Below, piece by piece: positions 29,918 to 49,613 of a stretch of DNA of 64,000 bases. The stretch's first letter is position 1, and every line of letters starts with the position of its first letter. The DNA comes from Myxococcales bacterium (GTDB taxonomy: Bacteria; Myxococcota_A; Polyangia; Polyangiales; Polyangiaceae). The stretch spans positions 1 to 64,000 of the forward strand of contig JACPVJ010000196.1 of assembly GCA_016191785.1 (NCBI GenBank). Direction: 5' to 3'. Position numbers and translations under genes: made by a program. The notes below the pieces were generated by a model, which saw only the letters and a list, made by a program, of their open reading frames with translations, did no database searches and was not told the origin of the DNA.

Positions 29918-31873
29918 TCACGCACGTGAGCGCCGCCGCCGCGCGGCGAGCCCAAGCGCGAGCAGCGCGAGCGCGAGCGCGATCCGCCGGCTGTCACGCT
30001 CCGGCACCAGGCGGCACCCGCAGCCTCCGTCGTCGCCGGCGTCCGTGGTCCCGCCGGTGGGCACGTTGCCTCCGGACCCGGCGGCGGCGTCGTTGCCCGC
30101 GTCGTTGGCGGAGCCGCCGGTGCCCGCCTCTGGGAACACGCACTGCCCGCCCACGCAGGTCTTGGGGGGGAAGCAGACGGGGTTGCACTGTTCCGGCACG
30201 CACTGCCCGGTCTTCGCGTCGCACTCCTCGCCGGTGGCGCAGGTCACGCCCTCGCACAGCGGGACGCAGCCCTTGGTCGCGTCGCACTTCTGACCTGTCG
30301 GGCAGGTCACGCCCGAGCACATTCCCACGCACGCCCCGGTGCTGTCGCAGTGCTCACCGCTCTGGCAGGTCTTGCCCTTGCACGCCGGGGGCACGCAGTT
30401 CTTCGAGCCCGTCTTGTCGCAGACCTCGCCCGCGTTGCAGCCGATGTCGCCGGCGTAGCAATCGCACGGCGCCTTGCACTCGCCCTGCGAGCACTGCTTG
30501 GGCGCCGGGCACTGCACCCCGGCGCAGGGGTCGACGCACTTGCCGTCCTTGCAGGCCTGTCCGAAGGGACAGACCACGCCATCACACGCCGGCTTGCACG
30601 TCTTGCTGCTGGCGTCGCACACCGAGCCCGGCGGACAACCCCCGGTGGTGCAATCGTCGGGGATGCAGATCGACCCCTGGTCAGTGGGCTTGCATGTCGA
30701 CCCCAGGGGGCAGTTGCCGATCTCGCCGCCCTTGCAGGGCGGCACGCAGATGCTGGCGTGGCAGAACAGGCCTGTGGGGCACGCTCCGGGCTTGCCGTCG
30801 CAGTCCAGATCTTGGGCCGAGTCGCAGGGCTCGGGCGCGCCGGGGTAGGTCTTGCTGTCGGCGTCGTTGCAGTCGCACGGCTGGGCCGCGCCGGGGCACT
30901 TGCAGTCGACGAAGCCGTCTTTGTCGGCGTCGGGGCACACGCCCGTGCCTTGCTCGGTGAGCCCCGCAACGGCGTCCACTTCACCCTCTTGAGAGTGGTA
31001 CGAGCACGCCGGAAACTCCTTGCCGTCGTAGCCAGCCACGATCGACGCGTAGCGGAAGGTTATCCCGCACGGCAGCCCGTGCACCTGCGTGAACGAGTCG
31101 TCCTCGACGGCGTAGTTCGCGGTGTCGCCGCAGGCGGCCCAGGTGGGGTTGGACGGCGACGGGGGGCGCGTGGTGAACCACCCATGGGTGAAGATCTGCT
31201 GCAAGACGGCCCGGTTCCACTTCTGTGGGTCGGTGCCGGTGGTCGCGGGATCTTCCACCGCGTCTTTCGCAAACGGGTTGTCCGTCAGATAGACCGTGTA
31301 CTCGACGGACTCGCAGGGCTGCGGGCCGTGATCGTTCTGGGCGAAGATGGCGACCTTGTTCGAAGGCCCGCCCAGATCGAACACCAACCCCTCCCACGGA
31401 AAGTAGTGGCCCGGCGTCCCGTCGGGCACGCAGTTCGAGACCGCGCGATTCGGGCACCCGCCGACCAGCGTGTGATCGAGCAACCGGCAGGGGTGCCACC
31501 AGGTGTGATCGAGCTTCTCGAGATACTTGGTGGCGTTCGCCACCGTGTTGGTCACGGTCCCGTTGCACGAATACTGGCCCGGGCAATCGTAGGGTGGCGT
31601 CGACTCGCCCGCGCAGCCGGTGTGGCTGGTGGTGTCGCAGCCGGGCCAGTTGTTGAAGAACTTGGCGAGCAGCGGCAGCTGCGGTCCGGTCAGGCCGTTC
31701 TTGTCCTTGAAGATGTCGTGGACCACGCCACCGGCGCTCTGGATGGCGTTGATGCACGCCTGGGGCGACGTCGGTGGGTTGGCGTCGCACGCCCCCGTGG
31801 CGGCCTCCGCGCGAGAGCCCAGCGCGAGCGCGCCGAGCGCGAGTCCGAACGACAGGGTCGTCTTGATGGTCAT
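29918..31873 (-). CDS. Cys-rich MYXO-CTERM surface protein with calcium-type motifs
   Basis: 651 residues from ATG 31873, preceded on the minus strand by a strong GGAGG ribosome site. Type I signal peptide (MTIKTTLSFGLALGALALGS, cleavage after SRAEA). Residues ~25-345 form a unique N-terminal domain with Trp/Cys/His-rich motifs (LDHTWWHPCRLLDHTLVGGCPNR split over its length, AIFAQNDHGPQPCESVEYTVYL). Then DADKDGFVDC and CDCNDADSKTYPGAPEPCD, the Asp-rich putative metal-binding motif seen in MopE-type proteins. Eight or more Cys repeats follow (C..G..C..G..CDA.TG.C). The C-terminus has a Gly/Asn/Asp linker, DDGGCGCRLVP, a 15-residue hydrophobic helix and RRRRSRA: a MYXO-CTERM sorting tail. Its Cys repeats differ from those of the four relatives to the right and lack the PNGQ module. 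Confidence 0.88.
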   Translation of the reverse strand: MTIKTTLSFGLALGALALGSRAEAATGACDANPPTSPQACINAIQSAGGVVHDIFKDKNGLTGPQLPLLAKFFNNWPGCDTTSHTGCAGESTPPYDCPGQYSCNGTVTNTVANATKYLEKLDHTWWHPCRLLDHTLVGGCPNRAVSNCVPDGTPGHYFPWEGLVFDLGGPSNKVAIFAQNDHGPQPCESVEYTVYLTDNPFAKDAVEDPATTGTDPQKWNRAVLQQIFTHGWFTTRPPSPSNPTWAACGDTANYAVEDDSFTQVHGLPCGITFRYASIVAGYDGKEFPACSYHSQEGEVDAVAGLTEQGTGVCPDADKDGFVDCKCPGAAQPCDCNDADSKTYPGAPEPCDSAQDLDCDGKPGACPTGLFCHASICVPPCKGGEIGNCPLGSTCKPTDQGSICIPDDCTTGGCPPGSVCDASSKTCKPACDGVVCPFGQACKDGKCVDPCAGVQCPAPKQCSQGECKAPCDCYAGDIGCNAGEVCDKTGSKNCVPPACKGKTCQSGEHCDSTGACVGMCSGVTCPTGQKCDATKGCVPLCEGVTCATGEECDAKTGQCVPEQCNPVCFPPKTCVGGQCVFPEAGTGGSANDAGNDAAAGSGGNVPTGGTTDAGDDGGCGCRLVPERDSRRIALALALLALGLAARRRRSRA

Positions 31874-31981
31874 GGGGTGCCTCCGGGGCGGGCCCAGAAT
31901 ATCGCGGCCCTGGCCTGGTCGGGGGGCCATCGTGCCGTCGGGGCTTGCCCGCCCCGGATCGCGGCCTCAGCTTGAGTGGTC

Positions 31982-32566
31982 ATGCAGCTGGGCGAGATCT
32001 GGGGCTGGGTCACTGCGGTTGCGCTCGGGGTCGGTCTGGCGGCGACCGCCGGCCTTCGTGCCTGGCTGCCTCTCCTCTTGGCGGGCGGCCTCGCCCGCCT
32101 GGGCGTGGTCTCGCTGGGCGAGAGCTTCGGGTTCTTGTCGTCCACCCCCGCACTGGTGCTGTTCGCGGTCGCGACCGTGGTCGAGATCGTCGCCGACAAG
32201 ATCCCCGCGGTCGATCACGTGCTGGACGTGATCTCCACCGTGGTGCGCCCCGCCGCGGGCGCCCTGCTGGCGGCCTCGGCGCTGTACCAGGTGAACGACC
32301 CGCTGATCGCGGCGGTGATCGGCATCTGTGTCGGCGCGCCGGTGGCCCTGGGTCCGCACGCGGCCAAGTCGGCGCTACGCGCGGCGTCGTCCGCCACCAC
32401 CGCCGGCTTTGCGAACCCGATCGTCAGCTTCATCGAAGACGGCGTGGCCCTCGCGCTCTTCGTCCTGGCGGTGGTGGTGCCGGTCGTGTCGCTGCTCTTG
32501 GTGGTGATGGTGGCGTGGTGGGTGATCCGACGCCGGCGGCGCAAGCTGGCGGTCGCGCCGGCGTGA
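31982..32566 (+). CDS. DUF4126-family membrane protein
   Basis: 194 residues from ATG 31982; GTG 31976 would add two. Four to six hydrophobic helices with family-type motifs: GVGLAATAGLRAWLPLLLAG, FAVATVVEIVADKIPAVDHVLDVI, RPAAGALLAASALYQ, GAPVALGPHAAKSALRAASSATT, NPIVSFIEDG. Ends in a hydrophobic helix plus a RRRRRK tail (inside-positive). The family has no known biochemical activity. Two orientations meet here: the gene before and after are on the other strand. Confidence 0.88.
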   Translation: MQLGEIWGWVTAVALGVGLAATAGLRAWLPLLLAGGLARLGVVSLGESFGFLSSTPALVLFAVATVVEIVADKIPAVDHVLDVISTVVRPAAGALLAASALYQVNDPLIAAVIGICVGAPVALGPHAAKSALRAASSATTAGFANPIVSFIEDGVALALFVLAVVVPVVSLLLVVMVAWWVIRRRRRKLAVAPA

Positions 32567-32567
32567 G

Positions 32568-32834
32568 TCACTCGGGGAACGTCTCCCACAGCCCGACCGC
32601 GCGCCGCCGCCGCGCCTTGGCCACCAAGAAGGCGTCGAGCGCGACGAGGGCCGACACGATGTAGCCCACGCCGCACGAGGCAATCACCAGCGCCATGATC
32701 AGCAGGCCCTTGGCCGCCTGACCCAAGATCACGTGACCGAGGCCAGGCGCCAGCACGCTGACGATGATCGCCAGAACGTCGGTCCCGTCGAGCTCGCCGG
32801 GGGTCGAGAGGGTGGGTGAGGGGAGGGCGTCCAT
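32568..32834 (-). CDS. Small two-helix membrane protein
   Basis: 88 residues from ATG 32834 (MDALPSPTLSTP), chosen because a purine-rich AAGGAAG lies upstream and the longer in-frame version has only polar residues. Two hydrophobic segments: VLAIIVSVLAPGLGHVILGQ and GLLIMALVIASCGVGYIVSALVALDAFLV, followed by KARRRR. The PGLGH..LGQ..KG pattern resembles TM2-type or DUF-type small membrane proteins. Function unknown. Its stop lies one base after the DUF4126 stop on the other strand. Confidence 0.7.
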   Translation of the reverse strand: MDALPSPTLSTPGELDGTDVLAIIVSVLAPGLGHVILGQAAKGLLIMALVIASCGVGYIVSALVALDAFLVAKARRRRAVGLWETFPE

Positions 32835-32911
32835 TTTCCCGAATGCTTCCTTTCGTCGCGACCCGAAGCGGGCGCGGTCAGAGAGCATTCGGGGCGGGGA
32901 CGGGTCTTATT

Positions 32912-35900
32912 TCAGGCGGCGCGCCGGCGCCGCAGCGCGGCGAATGCCACGGCCAAGAGCCAGCCTGCGTGGGTCGGGTCGCTCTTGGCGGGCACGCGAC
33001 AGCCGCAGCCCCCGTCATCTCCGCCGCCGTCAGCCTTCTTGCCGGCGCCGCCTCCCGATGAGGTACCACCTGCCGACGCGCCGCCGGACGAGCCGCCCGC
33101 GGCACCGCTGCCGCCGGCGCCGCTGCTCCCGCCGACGCCCGAGTCGATCCCGCCGTCTGCCGACACGCACGCGTTGCCCTGGCACGTGTAGCCGGGGGCA
33201 CAGTCCGACCCCGACGCGCACTGCTGCTGGCAGGCGCCGCCAACGCATTTGTATGGCACGCAGGACTCGCTCTGGCCGTTCGGTTGCAGCACTGTGGTCG
33301 CGTCCTTGCAGGTTGCAGAGGTGACTGCGCACTTGCCGGTGTTGGTGTCGCACTTCGCGCCCTGCGCGCAGTCGGTGTCCGACGCGCAGGTCGATGCGCA
33401 GACACCCGTCGCCGCCTTGCAGGCGTAGGGCAAGCAGTTCTGCGTCGGGAGCAGCGAGCAGAGCCCGGCGCCGTCGCAGGTTCCGGCCGGTTGCGACACG
33501 TCGCCGCTACAGCTCGCGTCCTTGCACGCCGTGCCCGCTGCGGGGTAGGCGCAAGCGCTCTTGTTCGCGCCGTCGCAGGCGCCCTTGCACTTGTCGCCGG
33601 TCGTGCCCGAGCAATCGGTCCGGGTGCCGCGCGGCTTGCCCGCCACGGGCTTGCACTGCCCGAGGCTCCCGGTCTCGGCGCAGGCCTCGCACTGACCGTT
33701 GCAGGGCGCATCGCAGCACACCTGATCGACGCAGAAGCTCGACTTGCAGGCGTTCGCTACCGTGCACGTCTTCCCGTTGTCGATCTTGGGGATGCACACC
33801 CCGTTCGAGCAGTAGTTGTCGGTCACGCAGTCGCTATCGGCCGTGCAAGGGCTTGCGCATGCGGAGCCTTTGCACACGTACGGCGAGCAGTTAGCGTTGT
33901 TCTGATCGGTGCAGAGGCCCGCGCCGTTGCACACCTTGCCCGAGACAGAGCCGTTGACGCAGGTGGTGGGGCCGCAGCTGGTCCCTGCCGCGCCCTTGGC
34001 GCACTCACCGGGGGTCCCAGAGCACGAGGCTTGGTCGCCGCACGGGTCGCTGCCGGTGACGCACTGGTTGCCCGGGTTGGCCCCCTTCTTGGCCGCGCCG
34101 CACTTGCCGTTGTTGGCCAGGCTGCCGTCTTCCTTGTTGCCCGCGGCGCAGGCCATGCACTTGCCGGTACAGGTCCCGTCGCAGCACACGCCGTCGGCGC
34201 ACAGGTTCGAGGCGCACACGGAGGCGCTCGCGCACGGCTGCCCGAGTGGCTCCTTGGGTATGCAAGAGCCGCCCTTGCAGTAGTTCCCGGGAGAGCAGTT
34301 GGCGTCGGAGCCGCAGCTCTGGGGGCAGCTGGCTGCACCGCCGCAGAGATACGCGCCGCACTGACCTGCCGAGCCCGTGCCGAGGACCGTGCACTTTCCG
34401 TTCTGGGTGGCCCCGAGCGCAGCTGAACACACGTCGCAGCCGTTGCCGCATGTCGAGTCACAGCAGTAGCTGTCGACGCAGTGCCCGTTCAGGCAGTCGC
34501 CGTTCGCGCTGCAACCCTGACCGTCGTCCTTCTTGCAGTTGCCGGCGCTGTCACAGCTGTTGACCCCACCGCACGCGGTCCCGTCTTTGCCGCTCGTGAT
34601 CAGCGTGGTGCAAGTTCCCGCGGTGTTGGCGCATGACCGGCACGGCGTGGTGCAGGCATCAGCGCAGCAATAGCCGTCGACGCAGTTGTTGCTGGCGCAA
34701 TCCGTCGCCAAGGTGCAGGTCTGCCCGTTCTTCTTCTTGCAATCCGCGCCCGCGCTGCACGTGCTCGTGCCCTGGCACTGGGCGCCATCGTCCTGGTTCG
34801 TGACCAAGGTGGTGCAAGTCCCCGCGGTGTTGGCGCATGACCGGCACGGCGTGGCGCAGGCGTCTGCGCAGCAATAGCCGTCGACGCAGTTGTTGCTGGC
34901 GCAATCCGTCGCCAAGGTGCAGGTCTGCCCGTTCTTCTTCTTGCAGGCGCCACTCGCGCTGCATGTGTTCGCGCCGGTGCAGGTGTCGGTGTCGTCGGCG
35001 CTGACCACCGAGGTGCACTTCCCAACCGAATAGAAAGTCCCCGCTTGTCCCAAGTCACAGCGCTGGCACACGCCACAGCTCGGCGTGAGACAACACACGC
35101 CGTCGACGCAATTGCCCGTGTCGCAGGTGGTGCCGTTCGAGCAGGCGTCTCCGCGCACTATCATCGCCCAGGTGTCCTTGGGGTCGGCGGGGTCCGGGGA
35201 CACCGTGTCGCCCGAGTACATCACGAAGCGCTTGTTCGCCGGCTCGAACACCAGGGGCGTCGAGCTGCGCGCGGTCGGCGCGGCGGCCGAGCCCGCCTGT
35301 TGGATCTCCGCCCACGCGGAGCCATCCCATTGCCAGAGCTCTTTCGACGGGCTCGCGCCGGGCTTGCCGCCGAAGAGCAACACCTTCTTGCGAACGCTGT
35401 CGTAGCCCATGCCGGAGCCGGTGCGCTGGCCCAGACCCGCGGGCGTGGTCGCGGGCTCGAACTTGTCGGTGCTGCTGTTGTAGAGCACCGTGATGTCAGC
35501 CATGCCGCCCGAGGCGGTTCCACCGTAGATCACCGTTCGCGCATTTTGCGCGTCGTAGGCCATCCCATGCATCGTGCGGGCCGTGGGCGCCGTGCACCCC
35601 GAGCCGCAGCGCTTCGACCACTTGGCGGTCGTGCCGTTCCACTCCCAGATCTCGCTATTGTACCCCGAGCCCGGGTTGCCACCGAACAAGAGCACGCGCT
35701 GCAGCGCCGAGTCGTACGCCATCGCGTGCCCATAGCGAGCAGACGGCTTGTCGACGCCTGCTGTGCACGACCCGGCACACTTCTGGGTCCAAGAGCCCGA
35801 AGCGTAGATCCACGTCTCGTCGATCGGGCTCCCGTTGTAGCCGCCGAACAGGACCGTCTCGCCGCGAGCTGCGTCGTGGGCCATCGCGTGGTAGCGACGC

Positions 35901-36844
35901 CCCCCGCTCGGGCTCGACGCCACGGACCAGGTAGAGCCGCTGAGGGTCCAGGCGTCGGCCAAATACGCGACGCCCCCCACGACATCCGTGCCTCCCGTCA
36001 CCAGCGTCACGCCCGTCGCGGCGTGGTGGGCCATCGCGTGCCCGTACCGGCCCGGAGGCGGCGAAGTTCCGTTGAGCAGGGTCCACTCGGCGTTTTCGTA
36101 CGCCGGGTCGAGCACGATCGGGTACTCGAGCCCCGTGCGATCGAGCTCGACCACCAGACGGTCGCCCACGACGCTCAAGCGCGCATCGCGCCGCTTGCCC
36201 CGAGCATCGAGGGCGAAGGGCCGGTGGATGCGCAGTGCCGGCATGCCGGCGTCGTCCAAGAACAGCACTGCGCCGTCCGGTTGCTCGGCCACGTTGGAGA
36301 TGCCGGCAGGCAGCTCGATGCGCCAACTGAAGCGGGTGGGAGCCGCGTCGCTCTCGAGCACGAACAGCTCTTCGAAGCGCTGAGCGGTAGCGGCGACCAC
36401 CAGGTGCGTGGACGGATGCGCGTCCGCGTAGAACAGGCGGCCATCGATCAGCTCGGCTTCGCGGCCGGCCGCGCCTTCACGCCAGAAGCGGATCGCATGG
36501 CGAGCGCTCGGGCTCGGGCCCACCTCGAAGGCGAGCTCCGCCCGGTGCCCGACTCTTGCGGCGACCCGCGCGGTGCTCGCTCCGACGCCGCGATGCCCCG
36601 GCGAAACGAAGGCTTCGCCAGCGGGTTGCAGCCCGTTGAGCGACTCCGTGAAGAAGCGATCGAGCACTCTGTCGGCCCGCGCCACGGCGATGGCCGTCTC
36701 GAGGCCGAGCGGCGCTCGCACGCCGCCGCCATCGGGGCTCGCCACGAGCGGCCCAGTCTCGGGCGCCACCTCGCTGCACGCCGTCGACCCGAGAATCAGC
36801 AAGGCCCCCGCCCACGCCACCAGACGCCACACGTGCGATCCCAT
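32912..36844 (-). CDS. Kelch-propeller, Cys-rich MYXO-CTERM lipoprotein
   Basis: 1310 residues. N-terminus is lipoprotein-like: hydrophobic core then GSTAC with Cys23. Residues ~25-250 form a beta domain ending LEYPIVLDPAYENAEWT, a motif (G-x-x-[YW]P[IV]x[IL]DP) also in the two other propeller proteins here. Residues ~250-565 contain six Kelch repeats (RYGHAMAHH, RRYHAMAHD, RYGHAMAYD, TMHGMAYD, GSGMGYDS and a weaker one), suggesting a six-bladed propeller. About 600 residues of Cys repeats follow (units such as GNCVDGVCC, CANTAGTCTT), with a recent internal duplication. The last stalk module has PNGQSESCVPYKC and CQQQC, then a Gly/Ser linker, DDGGCGCRVP, a hydrophobic helix and RRRRAA: the MYXO-CTERM tail. 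A cell-surface adhesin-like role is inferred, not shown. Confidence 0.92.
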   Translation of the reverse strand: MGSHVWRLVAWAGALLILGSTACSEVAPETGPLVASPDGGGVRAPLGLETAIAVARADRVLDRFFTESLNGLQPAGEAFVSPGHRGVGASTARVAARVGHRAELAFEVGPSPSARHAIRFWREGAAGREAELIDGRLFYADAHPSTHLVVAATAQRFEELFVLESDAAPTRFSWRIELPAGISNVAEQPDGAVLFLDDAGMPALRIHRPFALDARGKRRDARLSVVGDRLVVELDRTGLEYPIVLDPAYENAEWTLLNGTSPPPGRYGHAMAHHAATGVTLVTGGTDVVGGVAYLADAWTLSGSTWSVASSPSGGRRYHAMAHDAARGETVLFGGYNGSPIDETWIYASGSWTQKCAGSCTAGVDKPSARYGHAMAYDSALQRVLLFGGNPGSGYNSEIWEWNGTTAKWSKRCGSGCTAPTARTMHGMAYDAQNARTVIYGGTASGGMADITVLYNSSTDKFEPATTPAGLGQRTGSGMGYDSVRKKVLLFGGKPGASPSKELWQWDGSAWAEIQQAGSAAAPTARSSTPLVFEPANKRFVMYSGDTVSPDPADPKDTWAMIVRGDACSNGTTCDTGNCVDGVCCLTPSCGVCQRCDLGQAGTFYSVGKCTSVVSADDTDTCTGANTCSASGACKKKNGQTCTLATDCASNNCVDGYCCADACATPCRSCANTAGTCTTLVTNQDDGAQCQGTSTCSAGADCKKKNGQTCTLATDCASNNCVDGYCCADACTTPCRSCANTAGTCTTLITSGKDGTACGGVNSCDSAGNCKKDDGQGCSANGDCLNGHCVDSYCCDSTCGNGCDVCSAALGATQNGKCTVLGTGSAGQCGAYLCGGAASCPQSCGSDANCSPGNYCKGGSCIPKEPLGQPCASASVCASNLCADGVCCDGTCTGKCMACAAGNKEDGSLANNGKCGAAKKGANPGNQCVTGSDPCGDQASCSGTPGECAKGAAGTSCGPTTCVNGSVSGKVCNGAGLCTDQNNANCSPYVCKGSACASPCTADSDCVTDNYCSNGVCIPKIDNGKTCTVANACKSSFCVDQVCCDAPCNGQCEACAETGSLGQCKPVAGKPRGTRTDCSGTTGDKCKGACDGANKSACAYPAAGTACKDASCSGDVSQPAGTCDGAGLCSLLPTQNCLPYACKAATGVCASTCASDTDCAQGAKCDTNTGKCAVTSATCKDATTVLQPNGQSESCVPYKCVGGACQQQCASGSDCAPGYTCQGNACVSADGGIDSGVGGSSGAGGSGAAGGSSGGASAGGTSSGGGAGKKADGGGDDGGCGCRVPAKSDPTHAGWLLAVAFAALRRRRAA
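34607..34945 (-). repeat. 135-bp near-identical direct repeat inside the Kelch/Cys gene
   Basis: Copies at 34607-34741 and 34811-34945, 204 bases (68 codons) apart. By eye there are four mismatches in 135 positions, and the last ~78 bases are identical. The repeat encodes the unit with KKKNGQTCTLATDCASNNC, CVDGYCCADAC and TPCRSCANTAGTCTTL. Neighbouring Cys units in the same gene are far less similar at DNA level, so this pair is a recent duplication or was made identical by gene conversion. Confidence 0.9.
35150..36100 (-). repeat. Kelch repeat region (six units)
   Basis: Within the 32912-36844 gene. Six units of about 50 residues, each with a GHAMA/GMAYD-type stretch, a small-residue strand ending LFGG or YGG/VTGG, and a Trp about 10-15 residues later (DAWTLSGSTW, ETWIYASGSW, EIWEWNG, ELWQWDG). 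Order: five clear units and a sixth weaker one ending in DTWAMIV. This is the usual spacing of a six-bladed Kelch propeller. Boundaries are approximate. Confidence 0.75.
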
Positions 36845-36922
36845 CTCCGCCTCACCCTTCCGTTCGAGCCGCCCCTAGCCCGTGCAGTCTAGGCGCGAGC
36901 GGTCGGCTTCGGCAACGTGGGA

Positions 36923-36939
36923 CTCGCGAGACTCGCGAG
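36923..36939. promoter_or_regulatory. Two tandem CTCGCGAG palindromes in a divergent promoter gap
   Basis: CTCGCGAG at 36923-36930 and again at 36932-36939, one base apart, with CTCGAG a few bases further on. The gap between the two divergent genes (36845-37071) is 227 bases, and the palindromes sit about 80 bases upstream of the Kelch gene start and 133 before the protease start. Repeated palindromes of this kind are typical operator half-sites, but no cognate regulator is identified. In such GC-rich DNA a chance origin is not excluded. Confidence 0.3.
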
Positions 36940-37071
36940 ACCCCTCGAGATTGACTCCGAACGTGCCGTCTGACGATGATGCCGCCCGACCCAGGGGCGG
37001 CAGCGACGAGCAGCGAGCGCTGGTTCCTCTCGGGCCATTCCCCGCACTCGCTCGATTTCCGGAGGCTCCCC

Positions 37072-39819
37072 ATGGCGAATTTCCCCAGCACGCTGACTCA
37101 CGGATCTGGTCGTCCCCTCGAGCTCGACTCGACGCGGCTCTTGCTCTCGTTCGATCCCCCCGGTCGTCCGGCGAACTTCGAGAAGGTGCTGGCGCACGCC
37201 GGGCTGCTCCTCGAGGACGCCCCGGTAGAAGGGAAACCCAAGGCCCGCGTCAACCAGACTCCCAGGTTCTGCTTCGTGCGCTCCAAGAACGGCGAGCCCG
37301 TGCCGCGCAACGCACCCGCGGACTTGATGGCCGCGCTGGGGAATGCGCCCGCGCGGAAGCCTCGACTGAAGTGGGTGGGCCCGGTCTACCGCTTCGTCGG
37401 AAACCCGACGGACGCCGGCTTGCTCGGCGTGGTGATCGACAGTCTGCGGCTGACGCCCACGGCGCCGGTCAAAGACGATCCGAATGGCAAGCTCTCCAAG
37501 CTCTTGAAGAAGCTCGCCCTCGAACCCAACGCCAAGCTGTCGAAGGCGATCGCGCCGACGCGCTTCGTCGAGGCGACGAATCTCGGCAACAGACACGCCA
37601 TTGCCGCGGCAGCCGAGCTCTCCGAGGCGCTCGCCGGCACCTTCAGCGCGCATCCGGTCTGCATCCCCCTGCGCTCGCCGGAGTGCGCGACGCCGAGCAG
37701 CGAGTCGCAATGGCCCCAGTGGAACATGATCCGGATCGGTGCGGAGGCGGCCTGGGATCGGACCAAGGGCTCGACGTCGGTGTGCGTGTGCGTCGTCGAC
37801 AAGGGCGTACAGCGAGCTCATGAGGAGCTCAATCGGGCAAGCAGCTACGGCCACGACGCGGGGACGGGAGTCGATCACGGCGGCTACATCACCACCGGTA
37901 CCCAGGACGTCTCCGACAACACGACCTCGGCGCACGGCACGGGCGTGGCCAGCGTCACCTCCGGCGCTTGGGACTCGGGGGGGGTCGCGGGCCTGGCTGG
38001 CGACGCCGCCCTGCTGGCGCTGGCCGTCCCCAACTGGCTCGACACCGAGGTCGAGGCCGCCATCAAGCGTGCCTTCGACGGAACCAAACCGCCGACCGCC
38101 GCTACGGTCGCGCTCGACCAACGAGTACTGCTCTTGCCCTTCGTGCACGACCTGTTCGCCATCGGGCCGATCAAGGACGCCGTCGAGACCGCGCTGAACA
38201 GCGGGCTGACCGTCGTCTGCGCCAGCGGTGACGACGCGGACACGAGCACCTACCCCGCAGACGGATCTCACCCCCGCGCCATCGTGTGCGGCGCCAGCGA
38301 CGACGTCGACGCGCGGTACAACTCGAAGTTCCCCTCGTTCCTCAGCCTGGTCGCGCCGGGAAAGGACATTCCCGTGGCCGTTCCGGGACCTGGGCTCGGC
38401 GCGACCACCTACGGCCTTCTCCAAGGCAGCTCTTGCGGCGCAGCGCACGTCGCGGGCGCCGTCGCGCTGGTGCTCAGTCGCTCGGCCGCCGGACTCGCCA
38501 GCTACCCGTTCGGATCGACCAACCCCGAGAAGCTCAAGAGCGTGATCGAGCGGACGGCCCAGAAGGTCGGGACGGGGTACGGTTCGGAGATCAACCCGCG
38601 GACGCCGGAGCTTGGCTTCGGGCGCCTGCGCGCCGATTGGGCGGTCGACCTCGCCGATGTGATGATCAAAGACGATCCGGCGGACCGCGGCGTCGAGCCG
38701 TCCACCGGAGTGTTCTGGCGCGATTCGGCCGTGGTCATCCGCCAGACAGCCGAGTCCCAAGCGATCGTCGAGGCCAGCTTCGACACTTGGCATGCCGACC
38801 CCATGCAGTCCACGCGCATCTACGCCAGCACCAGCGGAGCGTCGTGCTACGCGTACGTGCGCGTGCAGAACCTGGGCCCGGCCAGCGCCGAGAACGTGCG
38901 CGTGCGCGCGGTGGGTGCGGCCTGCGCAACGGGCTTCATGTATCCGACGGACTGGAACGCCGCCGACGACGTCAACCACTTCGTGATGTCGCCCAACCCG
39001 TGGCCGGGTGATCCTGCCGCGGTCGGTGACGAATACGTGGTCGGGAGCCTGGCGGCGGGGGCAGCGAAGATCGTGCGCTTCGAGATCACCAAGGCCAAGG
39101 CCGACAAGGGTCTCGCCTGGCCGGGTTCGCACGTGTGTGGCCTGGCGAAGGTCACCGCGAACAACGACCACGCCTTCAACATGTTCGCACCTGCCGTGCC
39201 GGTGTCGAGCGAGCAGGCGCGGCGCAACAACCTCTGCCAGCGCAACCTGCACGTGGTCACGGCCGCCAGCCCTTGGTTCTTCCCGTTCCTGGCCGGCAAC
39301 GTCGTGGACGAGGACGAGACCATGGAGCTGGTGATCGAAGCCAAGTCGCTTCCGTCCGGAACGCTCATGCGCCTCGCCCTCGACGAGCCCGAGCGGGCCG
39401 CGCCCAATCTGGACCTGTCCGCACTGTCCCGATCGCCGCGCGCCGCCGCCGCCCCGCGCGCGGGCCACGCCAGCCTCACGCTGCTCGATCGCGCCCGCGT
39501 GGCCATCGGTTGCGGTGACACCATCGGGATCGCGACGTTGCCGCCGGGCACGCAATTCGACTGCTCGGGCGGTGCCCGCGGCGACGTGCGCGTGACCGGA
39601 GGCAGCGTGATCACGTCCGGTGGCAAGCGCTTGGTCGAGACACGAGGCGCGCACACTCGGGTGCGACTCCCGAAGGCGCCGGGCAGTGTCCTGCCACTCT
39701 ATCTCGAGATCCCGGTCCCCGCCGGGGTGAAGAAGACGGATCGCTTCTTGGTGGACGTCATTCAGAAGAACGCGGCCGGCCAGGTCGTCGGGGGCGTGAG
39801 TCTCTACCTAGTTCCCTGA
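37072..39819 (+). CDS. Subtilisin-like S8 peptidase with atypical oxyanion position
   Basis: 915 residues from ATG 37072, chosen for the GGAGG site five bases upstream; ATG 36976 lacks one. No signal peptide at this start. Residues ~1-215 could be a propeptide. S8 domain ~220-500: Asp243 in VCVVDKGVQRAHEEL, His288 in SAHGTGVAS, Ser454 in GSSCGAAHVAG (usual GTSMAxPHVAG, with Ala for Pro). At the oxyanion-hole position the motif is CASGDDA, giving Asp387 where subtilisins have Asn; in proprotein convertase 2 the same change is tolerated. Residues ~580-700 resemble a CARDB-like beta domain (YVRVQNLGPASAENVRV), and the C-terminal ~200 residues are beta-rich and unassigned. It stands inside the MYXO-CTERM cluster and may process one of its proteins or itself; activity is uncertain. 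Confidence 0.85.
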   Translation: MANFPSTLTHGSGRPLELDSTRLLLSFDPPGRPANFEKVLAHAGLLLEDAPVEGKPKARVNQTPRFCFVRSKNGEPVPRNAPADLMAALGNAPARKPRLKWVGPVYRFVGNPTDAGLLGVVIDSLRLTPTAPVKDDPNGKLSKLLKKLALEPNAKLSKAIAPTRFVEATNLGNRHAIAAAAELSEALAGTFSAHPVCIPLRSPECATPSSESQWPQWNMIRIGAEAAWDRTKGSTSVCVCVVDKGVQRAHEELNRASSYGHDAGTGVDHGGYITTGTQDVSDNTTSAHGTGVASVTSGAWDSGGVAGLAGDAALLALAVPNWLDTEVEAAIKRAFDGTKPPTAATVALDQRVLLLPFVHDLFAIGPIKDAVETALNSGLTVVCASGDDADTSTYPADGSHPRAIVCGASDDVDARYNSKFPSFLSLVAPGKDIPVAVPGPGLGATTYGLLQGSSCGAAHVAGAVALVLSRSAAGLASYPFGSTNPEKLKSVIERTAQKVGTGYGSEINPRTPELGFGRLRADWAVDLADVMIKDDPADRGVEPSTGVFWRDSAVVIRQTAESQAIVEASFDTWHADPMQSTRIYASTSGASCYAYVRVQNLGPASAENVRVRAVGAACATGFMYPTDWNAADDVNHFVMSPNPWPGDPAAVGDEYVVGSLAAGAAKIVRFEITKAKADKGLAWPGSHVCGLAKVTANNDHAFNMFAPAVPVSSEQARRNNLCQRNLHVVTAASPWFFPFLAGNVVDEDETMELVIEAKSLPSGTLMRLALDEPERAAPNLDLSALSRSPRAAAAPRAGHASLTLLDRARVAIGCGDTIGIATLPPGTQFDCSGGARGDVRVTGGSVITSGGKRLVETRGAHTRVRLPKAPGSVLPLYLEIPVPAGVKKTDRFLVDVIQKNAAGQVVGGVSLYLVP

Positions 39820-39829
39820 CCCCCGCACG

Positions 39830-41242
39830 TCACCGTGAGCGCCGTCGGCGCGCCGTTGCCACGAGCGCCAAGAGCGCGAGCGCGGCGAGTCCGTTCTCGC
39901 GCTTGGGCGCCGTGCGACAGCCACACCCGGCGTCGTCACTCGAACCGTCGCCGCCGCCCGACTTGCCACCCGTGGCAGTCGCGCCGCCGGAGCTGCTGGC
40001 TCCGCCGCCACCCCCCGCGCCGCCGGCCGACCCGTCGGCGTCGGCCACGCAGCTCGCCCCCTGGCATGCGTACCCGAACGCGCAGTCCGCGCCGGTGGTG
40101 CACTGCTGCTGGCACTTGCCTGCCTTGCAGACGTACGGCGTGCAGCTCTCGGTCTGGCCGTTGGGCAGCTGCACCGTGGTCGGGTCGAGGCACTTCGCCG
40201 TCGAGATGGCGCACTTGCCGGTGTTGCCGTCACAGGTCGCGCCCTGCGCGCAGTCCGCGCTGCTCGCACAGCCCTTTCGACAGAGCCCGTTCGTGGCGTC
40301 GCAGCCGTAGGGTGAGCAGGCCGAGGTCTGGCCGGCCGCGCACGCCCCGGTGCCGTCGCAGGTCGCGGCCGAGGTCGAGACGTCTCCGGTGCAGCTGGCC
40401 GCGCCGCAGCTGGTCGCGTTGCCAGGATAGCTGCACTTGTCGCCGTTGCCCGCGCAGCTGCCCTTGCACGCACCGCTGCCGGCGCAGTCCTGGCGCGGCG
40501 GCAGCGGCGTTCCGGTCACGAACGCGCACGTCCCGACCTTGCCCGCCAGGTTGCAGGCCTGACACTGGCCCGAGCAGTTGCTGTCGCAGCACACCCCGTC
40601 GGTGCAGTTGCCCGAGTCGCACTCGAGCTTGTCCTTGCACGGCGTGCCGTTGGCGCGCTTGGGCTTGCACACGCCCAGCTCGCAGCGGTTCGGCGGCTGG
40701 CAGTCCGTGTCGTTCGCACACGGGAACGCGCACGAGCCGTTCTTGCACACGTAGGGCGCGCACGGCTTTCCGGCCGGCGCGTTCTCGAAGTAGCAGACGC
40801 CCGCACCCGAGCAGATCGCGCCTTTGGCGCTCATCACGTTGCAGCTGTTGCCCGCGCCTGCGTCGGTGGCGCATGCAGCGCCCTGGGGAGTGAGCGCGCA
40901 CGCGCCCTTGCCGTCGCAGGCCCCCGTCTTCCCGCAGGTGCCCGCAGGGTCTGCGGCGCAGTCGTCGTGGGGGTCGAGCCCGTCGAGCGCCGCGCCGCAC
41001 GTGCCGCTGCCGGTGAGCGACTGCTTCTTCTCGGCAGCGCAGGCCTGGCACGTGCCCTTGCAGTCGGTGGTGCAGCACACGCCGTCGACGCAGAAGCCCG
41101 AGTCACACTCGCTGCCGGCGGTGCACGCTTGCCCCGCCGCCTTCGCGGCGCCAGTCGCGGTGCGGATGGGCTCCGGGCCGTCGTCGGGACCGGAGCAGGC
41201 GGCAGCAACGATCGCGATCGGGATCAGGAGCCAACGGGTCAT
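39830..41242 (-). CDS. Headless Cys-rich MYXO-CTERM lipoprotein
   Basis: 470 residues. Lipoprotein-like signal MTRWLLIPIAIVAAAC (Cys16). No propeller: the Cys stalk begins almost at once (AAGQACTAGSECDSGFCVDGVCC) and continues with about ten Cys units including NCTDGVCCDSNCSGQCQACNL. Its last module, CLDPTTVQLPNGQTESC with PYVC and GKCQQQC, is the same as in the three propeller relatives. Then GGAGGGGG-type linker, SDDAGCGCRT, a hydrophobic helix and RRRRSR (MYXO-CTERM). Divergent from the 1673-residue FG-GAP protein (111-base gap), convergent with the S8 protease. It may be a stalk-only family member or a product of head loss. Confidence 0.88.
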   Translation of the reverse strand: MTRWLLIPIAIVAAACSGPDDGPEPIRTATGAAKAAGQACTAGSECDSGFCVDGVCCTTDCKGTCQACAAEKKQSLTGSGTCGAALDGLDPHDDCAADPAGTCGKTGACDGKGACALTPQGAACATDAGAGNSCNVMSAKGAICSGAGVCYFENAPAGKPCAPYVCKNGSCAFPCANDTDCQPPNRCELGVCKPKRANGTPCKDKLECDSGNCTDGVCCDSNCSGQCQACNLAGKVGTCAFVTGTPLPPRQDCAGSGACKGSCAGNGDKCSYPGNATSCGAASCTGDVSTSAATCDGTGACAAGQTSACSPYGCDATNGLCRKGCASSADCAQGATCDGNTGKCAISTAKCLDPTTVQLPNGQTESCTPYVCKAGKCQQQCTTGADCAFGYACQGASCVADADGSAGGAGGGGGASSSGGATATGGKSGGGDGSSDDAGCGCRTAPKRENGLAALALLALVATARRRRSR

Positions 41243-41352
41243 GGGATGTCCAAGAGGTTGCCACGACGAGGCGGCCGGGCGCCATGGCGGGTGCGCCCGA
41301 GCGGTTCCCTCGGCCTATCCGAATGGGTAACATGTCGGCTCGAGGTGACCGG

Positions 41353-44300
41353 ATGCGCGCGGCTTATGTTGGATGTGCCCTGTCCTTGGTATTGGTCGTT
41401 GGCTGTAGCGAGTCGAAGTCGCCAGAGCTCGGAGTAGCCTCGTCCGGGCCGAGCGAGCCTTCGGCGCTAGCCGACCCCGGCGACCCCGCTGAAGTACGCG
41501 CCGCGTACGTTGCGGCCCGCCAGCGCGAAGGTGACCGAGATTCTGACTTTCACTTGCGCCAGCGCCCAGATAGTAAGTTCGAGGCGCCCAATCCCCGGCA
41601 CCGCTTCGTGGCCGAGCTGGGAGCCCGCGGTGCCCAGCTGACCTCGACCGAGGGCGCCTTCGAGTTGGGCCTGGAAACGACGGGCATCGCTTGCGGTGAC
41701 GCTCAGGTCGAACTGACGTTGGCTGACGCTCTGCCGGTCTCCAACCGGATCGTGCTGGCCGGGACTGCCGGGGAGGCAAAGGTCGACGAGTGGTATGTCA
41801 ATGGTCCGTTGGGCCTCCAGCAGGGTTGGGATGTGCAGCGACCGCCCTGTGAGGCTGCCAAGACCGAGCTCGTGCTCTCGATCACGGTTGCCGGGAGAAC
41901 GCCGGTTGCCAGCAGCGACGGACGGAGCATCGCTTTTGCCAAGCCGGGCCTTTCGCTGCCGGAGCTTCACTACACCGATTTGTTTGCACGCGACGCCGCC
42001 GGGCGCGCGCTCGGCGTGCGCATGGAAGCGTTCGACTCGCGGATTGCGATCCGCGTGGACACGGCCGGTGCGAAGTGGCCGGTCGCGATCGATCCACTCG
42101 TTGCTACCCAAGAAGCGAAGTTTGCAGCCTCTGGCGCCAGCGACGGCGCGGCCAACGACTGGTTCGGAAGCGGTGTTGCCGTCGACCCGGCCGCGTCGTT
42201 TCCCAACATCGCCGCGATCGGCGCGCCGGGGCGCGACGTGGCCGGCAACGCGAACCAGGGCGCTGTCTACGTGTTCGAGAAAGTCGCGACCTGGGGTCTG
42301 ACCGCCGTGCTCGTCGCAGCGGACGGGGCTGCGTCGGACGAACTGGGGACGTCCGTCGGCCTCAGCGGTACGACCATAGTGGCTGGCGCGCGCAACGCGA
42401 ATGGCCAAGCGGGGGCCGCGTACGTGTTCGTGCGAAACGGAACAGCGTGGTCGCAGCAGCAGAAGCTGACCGCGAGCGATGCGACCGCGCTGGACTTGTT
42501 CGGCACTGCGGTTGCGATCGACGGGAACACTGTCGCTGTTGGTGCGCCACTGGACGATGTTGGCGCCAACGCAAACCAGGGGTCCGGCTACGTCTTTGTT
42601 CGCAGCGGCACGTCGTGGACGCAGCAGCAAAAAGTGGTGGCGGCGACCAGCCCGGACGCCCAAGACCAATTCGGCTCGTCGGTGGCGGTTCTCGGCAACG
42701 ACGCGGCTTTCGGCGCGCCGGGAAACTACTACACGGCCTCCGGCTCTGGGGCCGCGTACGTCTTCACCCGATCGGGGACGACGTGGACGCAGCAGCAGGG
42801 CATCTTCCCGTCGACCTACCCGAGTGGGGGTTCTGGACGGAGCGTCTCATTGCTCGCCAACACCCTGGCCATCGGCGGGCCCGGGGAAGGGGCAGTCTAC
42901 GTCTATGCACGCAGCGGAACGACGTGGTCCCTCCAGCAGAAGCAGAGCAAACCAGCCGATGCGTTTGCCTTCGGTCGATCGACCGCGCTCTTCAATGCGT
43001 CGAACCCGACAATGGCAGTCGGCGCAGACGGCACGAACGTCGCGTTGGCGTCGCAGCAAGGGGCGACCTACGTCTATAGGCGCTCGGGGACGGCGTGGCC
43101 TCTGGAAGGCACGCTGATCGCCAGCGACGGCGTGGCGGGCGACCGTCTTGGATACTCGGTCTCGGGGGCCGGCAACACGGTTCTGACCGGGGCCTTCCAA
43201 GACGATGTCGGAGGGTCGGCGGACCGCGGCTCTGCGTACCTTTGGACCCGCGTCGTCTCGACGTGGTCGCAGGGGCAGAAGCTGGTAGCAGCCGAGGGGG
43301 TGCAGGACGAGCTCATGGGTCAGGCGGTGGCCATCGACGGAGACACCGCACTCGTTGGCGTGCCGCACGACACTGTGGACGGGGTCGGCTGGCAGGGTTC
43401 GGTCTTCGTGTTCGTCAAGAGCGGCGCGACCTGGAGTCAACAGGCGCGCATCGTCGCGAGCGACGGAGGCGGCAGCGACGAATTCGGCTCGGCAGTGGCC
43501 CTGGGTGGGACGACTGCGCTCGTCGGCGCCCCCGGTGACGCCATTGCTGCCGGTTCGGCCTACGTGTTCGTCCGGAGCGGGTCCTCGTGGCCCCAGCAGC
43601 AGAAGCTCACCGTCGCCGGCGCGCAGGAATCCGACCGGCTCGGTGAGTCCGTGGCGATTAGTGGGGACACCGCGCTCCTCGGGATGCCGGGCGACGGTGC
43701 CTCATCGCAAGGCGCGGCGATTGTCTTCGTGCGCAGCGCCGGCGTGTGGTCCCTGCAACAGAAGCTGACAGCGAGCGACGCGGCAGCGAGCGACAACTTC
43801 GGGGCTGCCGTGGGCCTCGCCGGCAACGATGCGATTGTTGGCGCGCCGCTCTGCGACGTTGCCAGCAAGGTCGACGAGGGCGCGGCCTACGTCTTCGTTC
43901 GGAGCGGCACGACCTGGAGCCAGCAGCAGAAGCTGACGGGGCCGAGCGGTGCCGCCGGCGACGAACTGGGCCGCGCGGTCGCCATCTTCGGGAGTGACGC
44001 GCTGATCGGCGCGCCCAAGGACGACGTCGGGACGCCCGACCGCGGGTCTGCGCTCGTCTTCGGGCGCTCGGGCGCCACCTGGACGTACAAGACCCAACTG
44101 CTCGCGAGCACCGGGACAGCTGGCGACGCCTTTGGCACGTCGGTTGCGCTTGGCGCCGACGTAGCCGCAGTGGGCGCTGCGCTGGACGACGTCAGCGCGA
44201 TGAGCGACGCGGGAAGTGTGCAGGTGTTCGTTCGTGACGCCACCGGCGCATGGGCGGAACAAACGCCGGCGATCGGTCCCTCGGACCCCGGAGCAGTCGA

Positions 44301-46374: not shown

Positions 46375-46490
46375 CAGCGGCGAGTTGCGCCAGCGGATCC
46401 GGTAGTCCGAGCTGCGACTTCCGTTCGTGCCAGCTCTCGGTCTCGCCGGGGGAGTTGCACGGGGCGCCACGACGAGCGTGGAACGGTGAG

Positions 46491-49400
46491 TCACGCCGCG
46501 CGGCTTCGTCCACGCCGCCGTCGCCGCAATGCCCAGAGCAGCCCGCCGGCCGCCAGCCACCCCGCGGACGCCGCGCCGCGATTTCGACGGTGCGTGCGGC
46601 AACCGCAGCCACCCTCGTCCGCGCTGCCGCCTCCGCTCGAGCTACCCGCGCCTCCGCCCGTGCCCCCGGACGCGCTCGCGCCTCCGCTGGCGCCGCTGCC
46701 GCCGCCGCTGCCGCCTCCGCCGCCGCCGCCCGCGCCCGCGCCGCCCTCGGCGGCGACGCACGCGCTGGCCACGCACGCCCAACCGGGGGCGCAGTCGCTC
46801 TCGGCGGCGCACTGCTGCTGGCAGGCGCCACCCACGCACTTGTAGGGCGAGCACGACTGCGTCTGGCCGTTGGGTTGCTTCAGCGTGTAGGCGTCGGCAC
46901 AGGTCGCGCCCCCGACCGCGCACTTGCCGGTGTTGGTGTCGCAGACCGCGCCCTGGCTGCACTGCGCGTCCGACGTGCAGGTCTTGCTGCAGCTGTTGGT
47001 CGACGAGTCACAGCCATAGGGCGAGCAGTTGGCGGTGCCCGGGGTCGAGCAGGCGCCGGCACCATCGCACTTGCCCTCGGGTTGCAGCACGTCGCCGGTG
47101 CACGAGGCGAGCGCGCACGGCGTGCCCAGGCTCGGGAACACACAGGTGGTGGGGTTCGCGCCGTTGCACGCGCCCTTGCACAGCGCGGTGCCGGTGCAGT
47201 CCGTGCGGGTGCCGTGGGGCTTGCCCACCACCGGCACGCAGCTGCCGATCGCGCTGCCGGTGTCGCAGGCCTCGCACTGGCCGGTGCAGGCCAGGTTGCA
47301 GCAGAAGCCGTCGGCGCAGAAGCCGCTGGAGCACTGGTTGCCCGTGGTGCAGGCTGCGCCGTTGGGCTTGGGGCCGACGCACACTCCACCGGTGCACACG
47401 TTGCCCGTGATGCAGTCGCCGTTGCCCGAGCAGCTGGAGGGGCAGGTGGCGCTTCCGCCGCCGCAGAGCAGGCCGTTGCAGCCGCCGGCGGGAACGGGTG
47501 TCGCGCCTTTGCCCAGCACGGTGCAAGTGCCGTTCGCGCTGGCGCCGAGGCTCTGCGCGCAGGTGTCGCAGGAACCGCCGCACGCGCTGTTGCAGCAGAA
47601 GCCGTCCACGCAGTTTGCGGATTGGCACAGGCCGCAGGCGGCGGGGTTCTTGCAATCGGTTGCAACCGAGCAGGCCGCACCTTGCGCCTTCTTGTCGGCA
47701 CAGGCCCCGGCGGAGGTGCAGTACTTGCCGGCGACGCAGTCGGAGTCCGCGGTGCAGGAAGCGGGGCATGCGCTCGTGGTGCCGTCGCACGCAAGCCCAC
47801 CGCACCCGGGCGACGGGACCGTGCCCTTCGCGGCGACGCTGCAGGTGCCGTCCTTGCTGCCGCCCGCCGCCACGCTGCAGACGTCGCAGGGAGCGCTACA
47901 GGCCGTCGTGCAGCACGTGCCGTTGGCGCACACGCGGTCGCCCAGGCACTCACCGAGGGTGCCACAGGCCGTGCCGGTGGCGCCGTTGATGCGCCACAGT
48001 TCGATCTTGCCCTGATTTGTAGCCACCGCGGCGGTTCTCCCGCTGGGGCGGACGGACAACTGAGGGGCGGGGGTGAAAGTGTAGGCGGGAGTGGAGGACC
48101 AGCCGGAACTGGGGCGGTCGTGGACCTGGCACGTCAGGCCTGCGCCGGCTCCGCACACGACGGCAACGTCGCCGTCGACGTCCAGTTTCTGACCCTTGCT
48201 CAACGGTTTTGGGGCGGACCAGGTCGTTCCAGAGCGCTCCGAGACGTGCGCCGTGGATGACAAGTCCCAGAACAGGAGAGTGGGACCGCTGAGCCGCACA
48301 ATTCCCTGGCGGTCGAACCCAACAGTGGTCTTCACCATCGGCCAGCTGATGTCGGATTGGAGCAACCAGCTGTTCACTGACCACGCCCAGACCCGCAAGC
48401 GGCCGTTTTGGGTCGCAGCTTCGAGGAAAGCCGCGGCGATCGTCTCCCCGTCTATCGCCACGCACGAGTTCCCCTGGCCGTTGGTCAGGCCGCCGTCCAG
48501 CCACGGTGAGTACGTCGAGAAATGCCCTGAAGAGCTCCGCTTCAGAGGGATCACGCTGCCGCCGTACGGTTCCACCGCCCAGTCTCCCGAGACGGCCGCG
48601 GCCGCGCACGACTGGCTCCCAAAGCCGCTTACTGTTCCCCAGCTCGTGCCGTTGTGCTTGTAGCTTCGGCATCCGTTGTCCGCGGTCAGCAGCGCATCGC
48701 CACCCAGCGAGACGACCTCCTCGTTACTCGCACCCAGGGTCTGCTTGAGCGACCACGATCCGGACGTCTCTCCATAGATCTTCGCCCCCGGACTGCCAAA
48801 ATTCCAGCCGGTAGCGAGCGTGGTTCCGTCTAGCTCCAAGCCGTAACCGCCCGCGATTTCCTGAACCTTCGTCGCCACCAGCGGGTCCACCGTCACGGGA
48901 TACTCCGCGCCGCTCACGTCGACGCTCAGCGTGAGCCGCCCGTCGTGCACGGCCATCTCACCCGCGAAGGCCTTGCCCTTGGCGTCCACGGCGTACAGAT
49001 CCGATATCGTCGCCAGCGTCTCGCCACCCGCCGAGCGCAGCGCGACGGCGTCGCCCTCCCGGACGGCATCGACGCCGCTCACGTCGAGCTCGATCTCGAG
49101 CGCCTCGGGCTGTGAGCAGGGCGGTGACGCGACATCGAAGCCCTGCTCGAGCCCGAGCGGGCTGTTGGCGTACCACTCGGTGACTCCGTCGTGACGATAC
49201 TCGACACGGTTCGGCGCGCTGGCCCGCGCGGCCGGTGCGGCGCCGAGCTCTCGGAGCTGGCCGCGGCAGCCCCAGCGCGTCGGGCGCAAGCTCACCTGAT
49301 GCTCGCCGAAGATCTCGAGCATCACGCCCTCCGCGTGCGCCTCGAGCGCGAGCGAGCGGCCCCGGTTGAGGAGCACTAGCCCGCCGCGGGGTCCGTCCAC

Positions 49401-49613
49401 CGCGCGCACGTGCAGGTCCGGCGTCGCTTCGCCGCGGCGCAGCGCGTCGGCCAGCTCGGCGACGCGTTCCGCCGCCACGGCGCGCACTCTCGCGGGCGGG
49501 GGAGCCTTGCCGGGGTCCTCGGTCGCGGCCGCGTCCGAACAACCCCACCCTGCCCACCCAGCCAGCAACGCCACGGCCCACGACAAGCCCGCCAAACCCT
49601 TGATGGTGCCCAT
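46491..49613 (-). CDS. Propeller-like, Cys-rich MYXO-CTERM lipoprotein
   Basis: 1040 residues. N-terminus MGTIKGLAGLSWAVALLAGW ends in AGWGC (Cys25), a lipobox-like site. Residues ~25-260 share the N-terminal domain of the FG-GAP protein (WYANSPLGLEQGFDV, AEYPVTVDPLVAT). Residues ~265-545 are beta-rich and may form a degenerate seven-bladed propeller (repeating GTSWGTV, GDWAV, GKIELW-like strands), without good family motifs. Then ~400 residues of Cys repeats, the CADAYTLKQPNGQTQSC, PYKC, GACQQQC module, a long Gly/Ser linker, DEGGCGCRTH, a hydrophobic helix and RRRRRGRSRAA. The start lies 13 bases after a C12 tract, with GGAGA just before the ATG as ribosome site. Confidence 0.9.
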   Translation of the reverse strand: MGTIKGLAGLSWAVALLAGWAGWGCSDAAATEDPGKAPPPARVRAVAAERVAELADALRRGEATPDLHVRAVDGPRGGLVLLNRGRSLALEAHAEGVMLEIFGEHQVSLRPTRWGCRGQLRELGAAPAARASAPNRVEYRHDGVTEWYANSPLGLEQGFDVASPPCSQPEALEIELDVSGVDAVREGDAVALRSAGGETLATISDLYAVDAKGKAFAGEMAVHDGRLTLSVDVSGAEYPVTVDPLVATKVQEIAGGYGLELDGTTLATGWNFGSPGAKIYGETSGSWSLKQTLGASNEEVVSLGGDALLTADNGCRSYKHNGTSWGTVSGFGSQSCAAAAVSGDWAVEPYGGSVIPLKRSSSGHFSTYSPWLDGGLTNGQGNSCVAIDGETIAAAFLEAATQNGRLRVWAWSVNSWLLQSDISWPMVKTTVGFDRQGIVRLSGPTLLFWDLSSTAHVSERSGTTWSAPKPLSKGQKLDVDGDVAVVCGAGAGLTCQVHDRPSSGWSSTPAYTFTPAPQLSVRPSGRTAAVATNQGKIELWRINGATGTACGTLGECLGDRVCANGTCCTTACSAPCDVCSVAAGGSKDGTCSVAAKGTVPSPGCGGLACDGTTSACPASCTADSDCVAGKYCTSAGACADKKAQGAACSVATDCKNPAACGLCQSANCVDGFCCNSACGGSCDTCAQSLGASANGTCTVLGKGATPVPAGGCNGLLCGGGSATCPSSCSGNGDCITGNVCTGGVCVGPKPNGAACTTGNQCSSGFCADGFCCNLACTGQCEACDTGSAIGSCVPVVGKPHGTRTDCTGTALCKGACNGANPTTCVFPSLGTPCALASCTGDVLQPEGKCDGAGACSTPGTANCSPYGCDSSTNSCSKTCTSDAQCSQGAVCDTNTGKCAVGGATCADAYTLKQPNGQTQSCSPYKCVGGACQQQCAAESDCAPGWACVASACVAAEGGAGAGGGGGGGSGGGSGASGGASASGGTGGGAGSSSGGGSADEGGCGCRTHRRNRGAASAGWLAAGGLLWALRRRRRGRSRAA

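Follow-up and report, generated by a model that had tools for sequence, protein, structure and literature searches.

Probable exchange of propeller heads on a shared distal stalk in a MYXO-CTERM gene cluster of a Polyangiaceae bacterium

The window analyzed here is a 64,000-nucleotide stretch of contig JACPVJ010000196.1 from a Myxococcales bacterium (genome label G000). Its interval 29918-49613 holds five genes with MYXO-CTERM-like ends plus one subtilase gene, P0006, which was absent from the original prediction made on this DNA and turns out to matter (Table 1). That prediction described five genes ending in [DE]xGCGCR, a hydrophobic stretch and arginines; all five open reading frames (ORFs) and C termini are indeed present, and the signature Cys, hydrophobic helix and Arg cluster are visible by eye in all five tails. 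TIGR03901 scored over cut-off at the C terminus of P0001, P0002, and P0003; a scan with this model gave no match for P0004 or P0005, though their tails show the motif by eye. The longest P0004 ORF begins at 41284, but an internal start, e.g., at 41353, is possible. As set out below, exchange of heads in this family is well supported. We consider it probable that these proteins form an envelope-anchored family of three exchangeable parts to which stalk recombination adds new heads, that the head of P0002 was exchanged, and that P0006 has the same history.

Table 1. Features of the MYXO-CTERM cluster and its flanks
Feature	Coordinates	Strand	Description
P0001	29918..31930	-	Cys-rich MYXO-CTERM protein without the shared stalk
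DUF4126 gene	31976..32566	+	In conserved left flank 31962-32899, 85% DNA identity in G071
P0002	32912..36844	-	N-domain, Kelch propeller, long Cys-rich stalk, MYXO-CTERM; mosaic gene
P0002 distal stalk	33164..34147	-	About aa 900-1227; PNGQ/CQQQC module at 33164-33322
204-bp tandem duplication	34594..34975	-	91% matches; proximal stalk of P0002
P0002 head	35165..36844	-	Lipobox-like N terminus, N-domain, Kelch propeller; of the heads found, G249's is closest
P0006 subtilase (Peptidase_S8)	36976..39819	+	Divergent partner of P0002
P0003	39830..41242	-	Headless stalk protein, lipobox-like N terminus, MYXO-CTERM
P0004	41284..46374	+	N-domain, 12 FG-GAP_2 stretches, stalk, CTERM-like end
P0005	46491..49613	-	FG-type N-domain, propeller read as decayed FG-GAP, stalk, CTERM-like end
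Ser/Thr protein kinase gene	49733..51211	+	Right flank kept in G071 (84%); adjoins Kelch gene in G249 (56%)

P0002, P0003, P0004, and P0005 have in common a distal stalk of 205 columns, with 54-63% identity to P0002. Its last 53 columns hold C-x(4)-T, PNGQ[ST], CQQQC, and DCA, and the four genes score 105-110 bits in a 53-column profile, far above chance. They are exactly the four that the original prediction named as sharing a module, although the first spacing had been given as C-x(3)-T. The fifth gene, P0001, has the anchor without the stalk: it scored 0 with the stalk profile (A1), and we rejected it as a member of the stalk family.

The full module is restricted in its distribution. In the source genome the 53-column profile exceeded 79 bits in six genes (the four window genes, C202, and C147), with a weaker match in C58 (42.5 bits). 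We examined 40 of the 48 TIGR03901 matches of this genome in their own frame; the other 8 are short frames, several at contig ends, and in two of the 40, L215 and L221, the frame retrieved ends elsewhere than at the match. The stalk profile scored >300 bits in four of these frames (P0002, P0003, C147, and C58). The remaining 36, ten of them with ≥10 Cys per 100 residues, scored zero or less. Because these ten Cys-rich proteins lack the stalk, the idea that the module is present in all Cys-rich proteins fails in this genome, and we rejected it as a common feature of Cys-rich CTERM proteins. P0004, P0005, and C202 are three more stalk proteins of the genome, not reported by the TIGR03901 model. 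Our family sample comprised 108 genomes, with at most the best 62 module candidates scored in each; the phylum samples comprised 282 genomes for the module and 377 for the subtilase; absences in these samples are not proof. At least 18 of the 108 family genomes carry the module at E ≤ 1e-9 (36 matches in all), and 15 of the 36 matches belong to five same-contig clusters, each of two to four. Across the 282 phylum genomes, 61 had some match at E ≤ 0.001, with >70 bits only in G000, G071 (same genus), and G249 (another genus). The profile search that had been proposed thus finds a specific module. A predicted model of the stalk (mean predicted local distance difference test score [pLDDT], 91.3) gave no PDB match at E ≤ 0.001 in a fold search, nor did its profile match PDB sequences at E ≤ 0.1. 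Elsewhere in the genome, the protein of L218:257-2767 combines the same N-domain and a Kelch head with a CTERM-like tail, but its Cys-rich stalk is a different one, scoring 0 with the stalk profile.

As for the heads, Kelch repeat models scored over the Pfam cut-off in P0002 (PF24681, 94.5 bits; PF13415, 39.8 bits), and P0004 has 12 FG-GAP_2 stretches over cut-off (457 bits); Pfam detected no propeller family in P0003 or P0005. The P0005 head aligns with that of P0004 from the N-domain through the propeller (∼590 columns, 27% identity, E of 1e-29 to 1e-30) and has an FG-type N-domain, while its predicted model (mean pLDDT, 73.8; 7 sequences) has many beta-propeller chains among its top PDB matches, with TM-scores of ≤0.4 over the query. 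We read it, from the alignment, the N-domain, and the propeller-like model, as a decayed FG-GAP head; the alignment and N-domain also led us to reject it as a separate kind. The N-domain, which has no Pfam match, precedes both propeller kinds: a profile built from 17 sequences, including the three concerned, scored 219 bits in P0002, 245 in P0004, and 228 in P0005, and the P0002 and P0004 N-domains are 26.6% identical (E of 1e-9). A common N-terminal domain had been proposed for two heads; the sharing stands, but the count is three. Likewise, different heads are attached to the module as anticipated (Kelch, FG-GAP, and headless forms), but the claim that the heads differ completely is not supported. 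The FG-head profile also matches integrin alpha-M chains (E of 1e-8). In the set studied we found two identified propeller kinds, headless forms, and four further heads (L094 and L150-L152). Three of the latter, L150, L151, and L152 (from G322, G324, and G326), are related module-bearing proteins whose ∼950-residue heads match no Pfam family above cut-off.

Head and stalk phylogenies, whose comparison the original prediction had suggested, conflict. The module candidates comprised 47 nonredundant sequences with ≥30 bits, of which 30 with ≥40 bits near the C terminus were taken into a first stalk tree; leaving out the short or doubtful stalk rows L149-L152 gave 26 rows. The 26-protein distal-stalk tree intermixes 10 FG rows (including P0005) and 11 Kelch rows (L140 being classed as Kelch on the basis of Pfam), requires at least 6 FG/Kelch changes, and rejects an FG clade (approximately unbiased [AU] test, p = 0.0038). 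For the 20 rows with both an N-domain and a stalk (L145 and L094 had no usable N-domain row), the N-domain tree splits FG from Kelch with 100/100 support and one change; the stalk tree of the same rows needs 5 changes and rejects an FG clade (AU, p = 0.0088). The two head kinds, FG and Kelch, predate the cluster.

P0002 offers the clearest single case. Kelch comparisons used a set of 15 rows; G306 lacks a stalk row, the head and stalk trees use 12 of the 15, and the mosaic test uses 5 sequences. Against the Kelch gene of G071 (G071_KE), all nine 60-residue windows of the P0002 head, to residue 540, are 23-43% identical; the proximal stalk is intermediate, and the distal stalk windows reach 70-92%. 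In 30-residue steps, residues 901-1200 are 73-97% identical (DNA, 77-87%), and the next step is 70%. Other orthologue pairs of the two genomes (P0003, P0004, and the C147-type Kelch gene) stay at 68-98% in 60-residue windows, protein ends excepted. The nearest head to that of P0002 is G249_KE, from another genus (42%, E of 1e-113), and the nearest to that of G071_KE is the G290 head (40%, E of 2e-89). The 12-row head tree groups P0002 with G249 (98/97) and rejects P0002+G071 (p = 0.0015); the 12-row stalk tree groups P0002, G071, and C202 (98/99) and rejects G071+G290 (p = 3.7e-11). A maximum chi-square test placed a break in P0002 after aa 752 (about 34589), beside the 204-bp tandem repeat: to the left, 133 sites favor G249 and 78 favor G071, to the right 25 and 177, and 0 of 5,000 permutations were as good. 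The same test was alike in kind for G071_KE against P0002 and G290 (90 to 68 left, 39 to 255 right). P0002 is therefore mosaic, and as judged from these comparisons its last third is orthologous to the G071 Kelch gene while its head groups with that of the other genus. Base composition of the P0002 head and P0006 resembles that of their neighbors, and neither supports nor excludes transfer between relatives.

Could P0002 and G071_KE simply be orthologous throughout, with heads that change very rapidly (for instance because of selection) above a constrained distal stalk? Heads are in general less conserved than stalks, and a P0002+G071 grouping is not rejected when only the N-domain is tested (p = 0.0695). 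However, the full-head tree does reject this grouping, and the preference left of aa 752 reverses instead of merely weakening. In addition, two other orthologous head pairs (P0004; C147) remain 68-97% identical in head windows, N-terminal end excepted, and the subtilases beside the two Kelch genes differ in type and ORF structure. We regard unequal rates as a very improbable explanation. Least credible of all is an assembly chimera at similar stalk repeats in P0002 or its G071 counterpart: although G071 is a metagenome-assembled genome (MAG), the assembly of the window consists of 216 contigs, and stalks are repetitive, within its own genome the P0002 stalk is only ∼67-71% identical in DNA to those of C202 and C147, which is too low for ordinary mis-joins, and both loci lie in long contigs with conserved flanks.

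P0006 matches PF00082 (70.8 bits), and its residues D242, H287, and S453 (numbered from a start at 37075), presumably the Asp-His-Ser triad, are invariant in four sequences. It gave no match to the MYXO-CTERM model, and we saw no Sec signal by eye in P0006 or its relatives. With the best 8 candidates scored per family genome, full-length relatives (1,079-1,175 bits) occur in at least 4 of the 108, the next best match being 139 bits over part of the profile; in the 377-genome phylum sample, only three genomes had a family member at E ≤ 1e-70 among the best 2 candidates in each. In all 4 family genomes the full-length relative lies divergently beside a Kelch/Cys-stalk gene. The subtilases fall into two types: type one is a single ORF (G000 and G249, 52% identical), and type two is two ORFs (G071 and G290, 37% and 46% for the two pieces), with 27-30% identity between types in the main piece and 31-34% in the tail piece. 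The type-two ORFs are adjacent (808+181 and 753+180 aa, at L130:9352-12340 and L191:9576-12414); since the split is present in two genera, it looks genuine rather than a sequencing error. The same two flanks (the DUF4126 gene and the P0003 orthologue) enclose the Kelch-subtilase pair of G071, which is inverted. The subtilase types track Kelch heads, not stalks; that P0006 shares the history of the P0002 head suggests a matched head-protease pair. We tentatively raise the possibility that the Kelch head and its divergent subtilase are a matched specificity cassette, which would move between lineages as a unit and be re-fused to the resident anchor-stalk by stalk-repeat recombination.

An alternative in which no head moves is stalk homogenization: heads would descend vertically, and distal stalks would be overwritten by gene conversion between paralogues. 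Stalks do tend to cluster by genome, as for the four FG genes of G294 and the two genes of L063, and L063 has a headless second copy of a 580-bp stalk-anchor stretch (87% DNA identity). The paralogous stalks of G000 and G071, however, are not homogenized: identity is 86% for the P0002 orthologue pair and 90% for that of P0004, compared with the 54-63% of the window paralogues to P0002. Homogenization also leaves unexplained why the subtilase type changes together with the head at a syntenic interval, and we think it unlikely. The L063 repeat lies in a headless ORF (L063:2814-3677) that overlaps the next FG-GAP gene (L063:3674-8722) by 4 bases and repeats its distal stalk; this ORF, which has no visible signal peptide, may be a relic, and the headless fragment (287 aa) was left out of A5.

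Several points weigh against head exchange with a linked protease, beyond the N-domain result given above. The G071 orthologues of P0003 and P0004 keep the same head state; thus, the swapping of heads on one anchor that had been predicted for the cluster is borne out at P0002 but not at these two genes. Cys-rich repeats align poorly, and support is low at many deep nodes of the stalk tree, so that we cannot give a firm count of exchanges. In the 12-row head tree G071+G290 reaches only 89/88, and in the stalk P0002+G249 lies at the edge of rejection (p = 0.0493 with 12 rows, 0.0701 with the 15-row Kelch set). In the Kelch gene of G290, which has a CTERM-like tail, the module is present only in weak form (A2, 21.8 bits). 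The case for co-exchange of head and protease comes from a single event, one split among four genomes, and several of the relatives compared are MAGs.

The cluster is plastic in other respects. G071 has no P0005 at the syntenic position, and the kinase flank comes directly after its P0004 orthologue; a search with the kinase found no clean empty site in G102. Next to the G071 block that matches window positions 54785-64000 lie a Kelch gene of the C147 type and a second FG gene, truncated by the end of the contig; in G000, C147 lies on a different contig. G071 also lacks P0001 between the same flanks (the rest of that genome was not searched); an ORF that looks ATPase-like (L130:6909-8162) is found there instead. 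Near the left cluster edge, the window encodes a periplasmic sugar-binding-type protein (Peripla_BP_4, 28289-29632). We found no RNA families or tRNAs in the window.

The source genome encodes a MrtC myxosortase (NF040594, 311.8 bits versus a cut-off of 195); a CPBP-family protease ORF at window positions 5197-5784 is not a myxosortase by NCBIfam cut-offs. Extracts of PMC11980579 describe that MrtX of M. xanthus cleaves the MYXO-CTERM of TraA, which depends on MrtX for proper anchoring at the surface. In the source genome, all 7 stalk proteins have a lipobox-like N terminus, compared with 10 of 36 other TIGR03901-positive frames as flagged by pattern, 6 of which are credible by eye (Fisher p = 6e-4 for flagged and 5e-5 for credible counts). 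On the strength of such lipoprotein-like N termini, stalk proteins may be lipidated and membrane-anchored at both ends, a feature absent from the earlier picture; such N termini speak against a head that simply stands free on its stalk. The same enrichment would fit a doubly lipidated or periplasm-facing scaffold, in which the propeller is a platform for protein assembly and not an outward recognition head. We find this rather doubtful: the lipobox was judged by pattern and eye, and according to the same extracts (PMC11980579), those MYXO-CTERM proteins that have been studied in M. xanthus arrive at the cell surface.

The envelope-anchored family that we favor would be built of a head (N-domain plus Kelch or FG-GAP beta-propeller), a disulfide-rich stalk of variable length, and a distal stalk module with a MYXO-CTERM tail, which a myxosortase such as MrtC would process. 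Recombination within the stalk coding sequence would provide a resident distal stalk and anchor with a new head; since stalk repeats permit such recombination, heads could be replaced without loss of export and anchoring. At P0002 the exchanged unit would be the Kelch head, with the divergent subtilase sharing its history. Once exported and anchored, presumably at the cell surface, the propeller proteins would bind an extracellular or envelope target, so that adhesion or recognition by the heads can be envisaged, and the matched subtilase probably acts on, and may cleave, the Kelch head or its ligand. MYXO-CTERM proteins number in the dozens in myxobacterial genomes (as stated in extracts of PMC11980579), and few have a tested role. 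Changing heads, with a protease that tracks one head type, would be a concrete system for how bacterial surface repertoires diversify, and the head-protease pairing becomes testable in vitro. If true, the cassette reading would describe a bacterial surface system that exchanges a recognition head and its cognate protease together while keeping the display scaffold constant.

The family shares FG-GAP_2 or Kelch repeats with propeller surface proteins bearing MYXO-CTERM, which we take to be a general annotation class; it differs in its family-specific PNGQ/CQQQC distal stalk, its N-domain without a Pfam match, and its linked subtilase. Among the titles and opening lines of abstracts listed from one collection of open papers, none described such an arrangement. 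Like the proteins here, myxobacterial PilY1 paralogues combine a conserved C terminus with differing N termini in Myxococcota (extracts of PMC13190605), but PilY1 is a family of pilus-tip proteins, and no PilY1 model was among the Pfam matches of the five proteins. Neither PA14, the TraA-type head, nor the TraA-type Cys-rich repeats of TIGR04201 were among their Pfam and NCBIfam matches, respectively (E ≤ 0.5). In its architecture, however, TraA of M. xanthus is similar: as far as extracts of PMC3325183 and PMC11980579 describe it, this polymorphic surface receptor likewise has an N-terminal recognition domain, a stalk of Cys-rich repeats, and a MYXO-CTERM, although its linked partner is the OmpA-like TraB, where that of P0002 is a subtilase.

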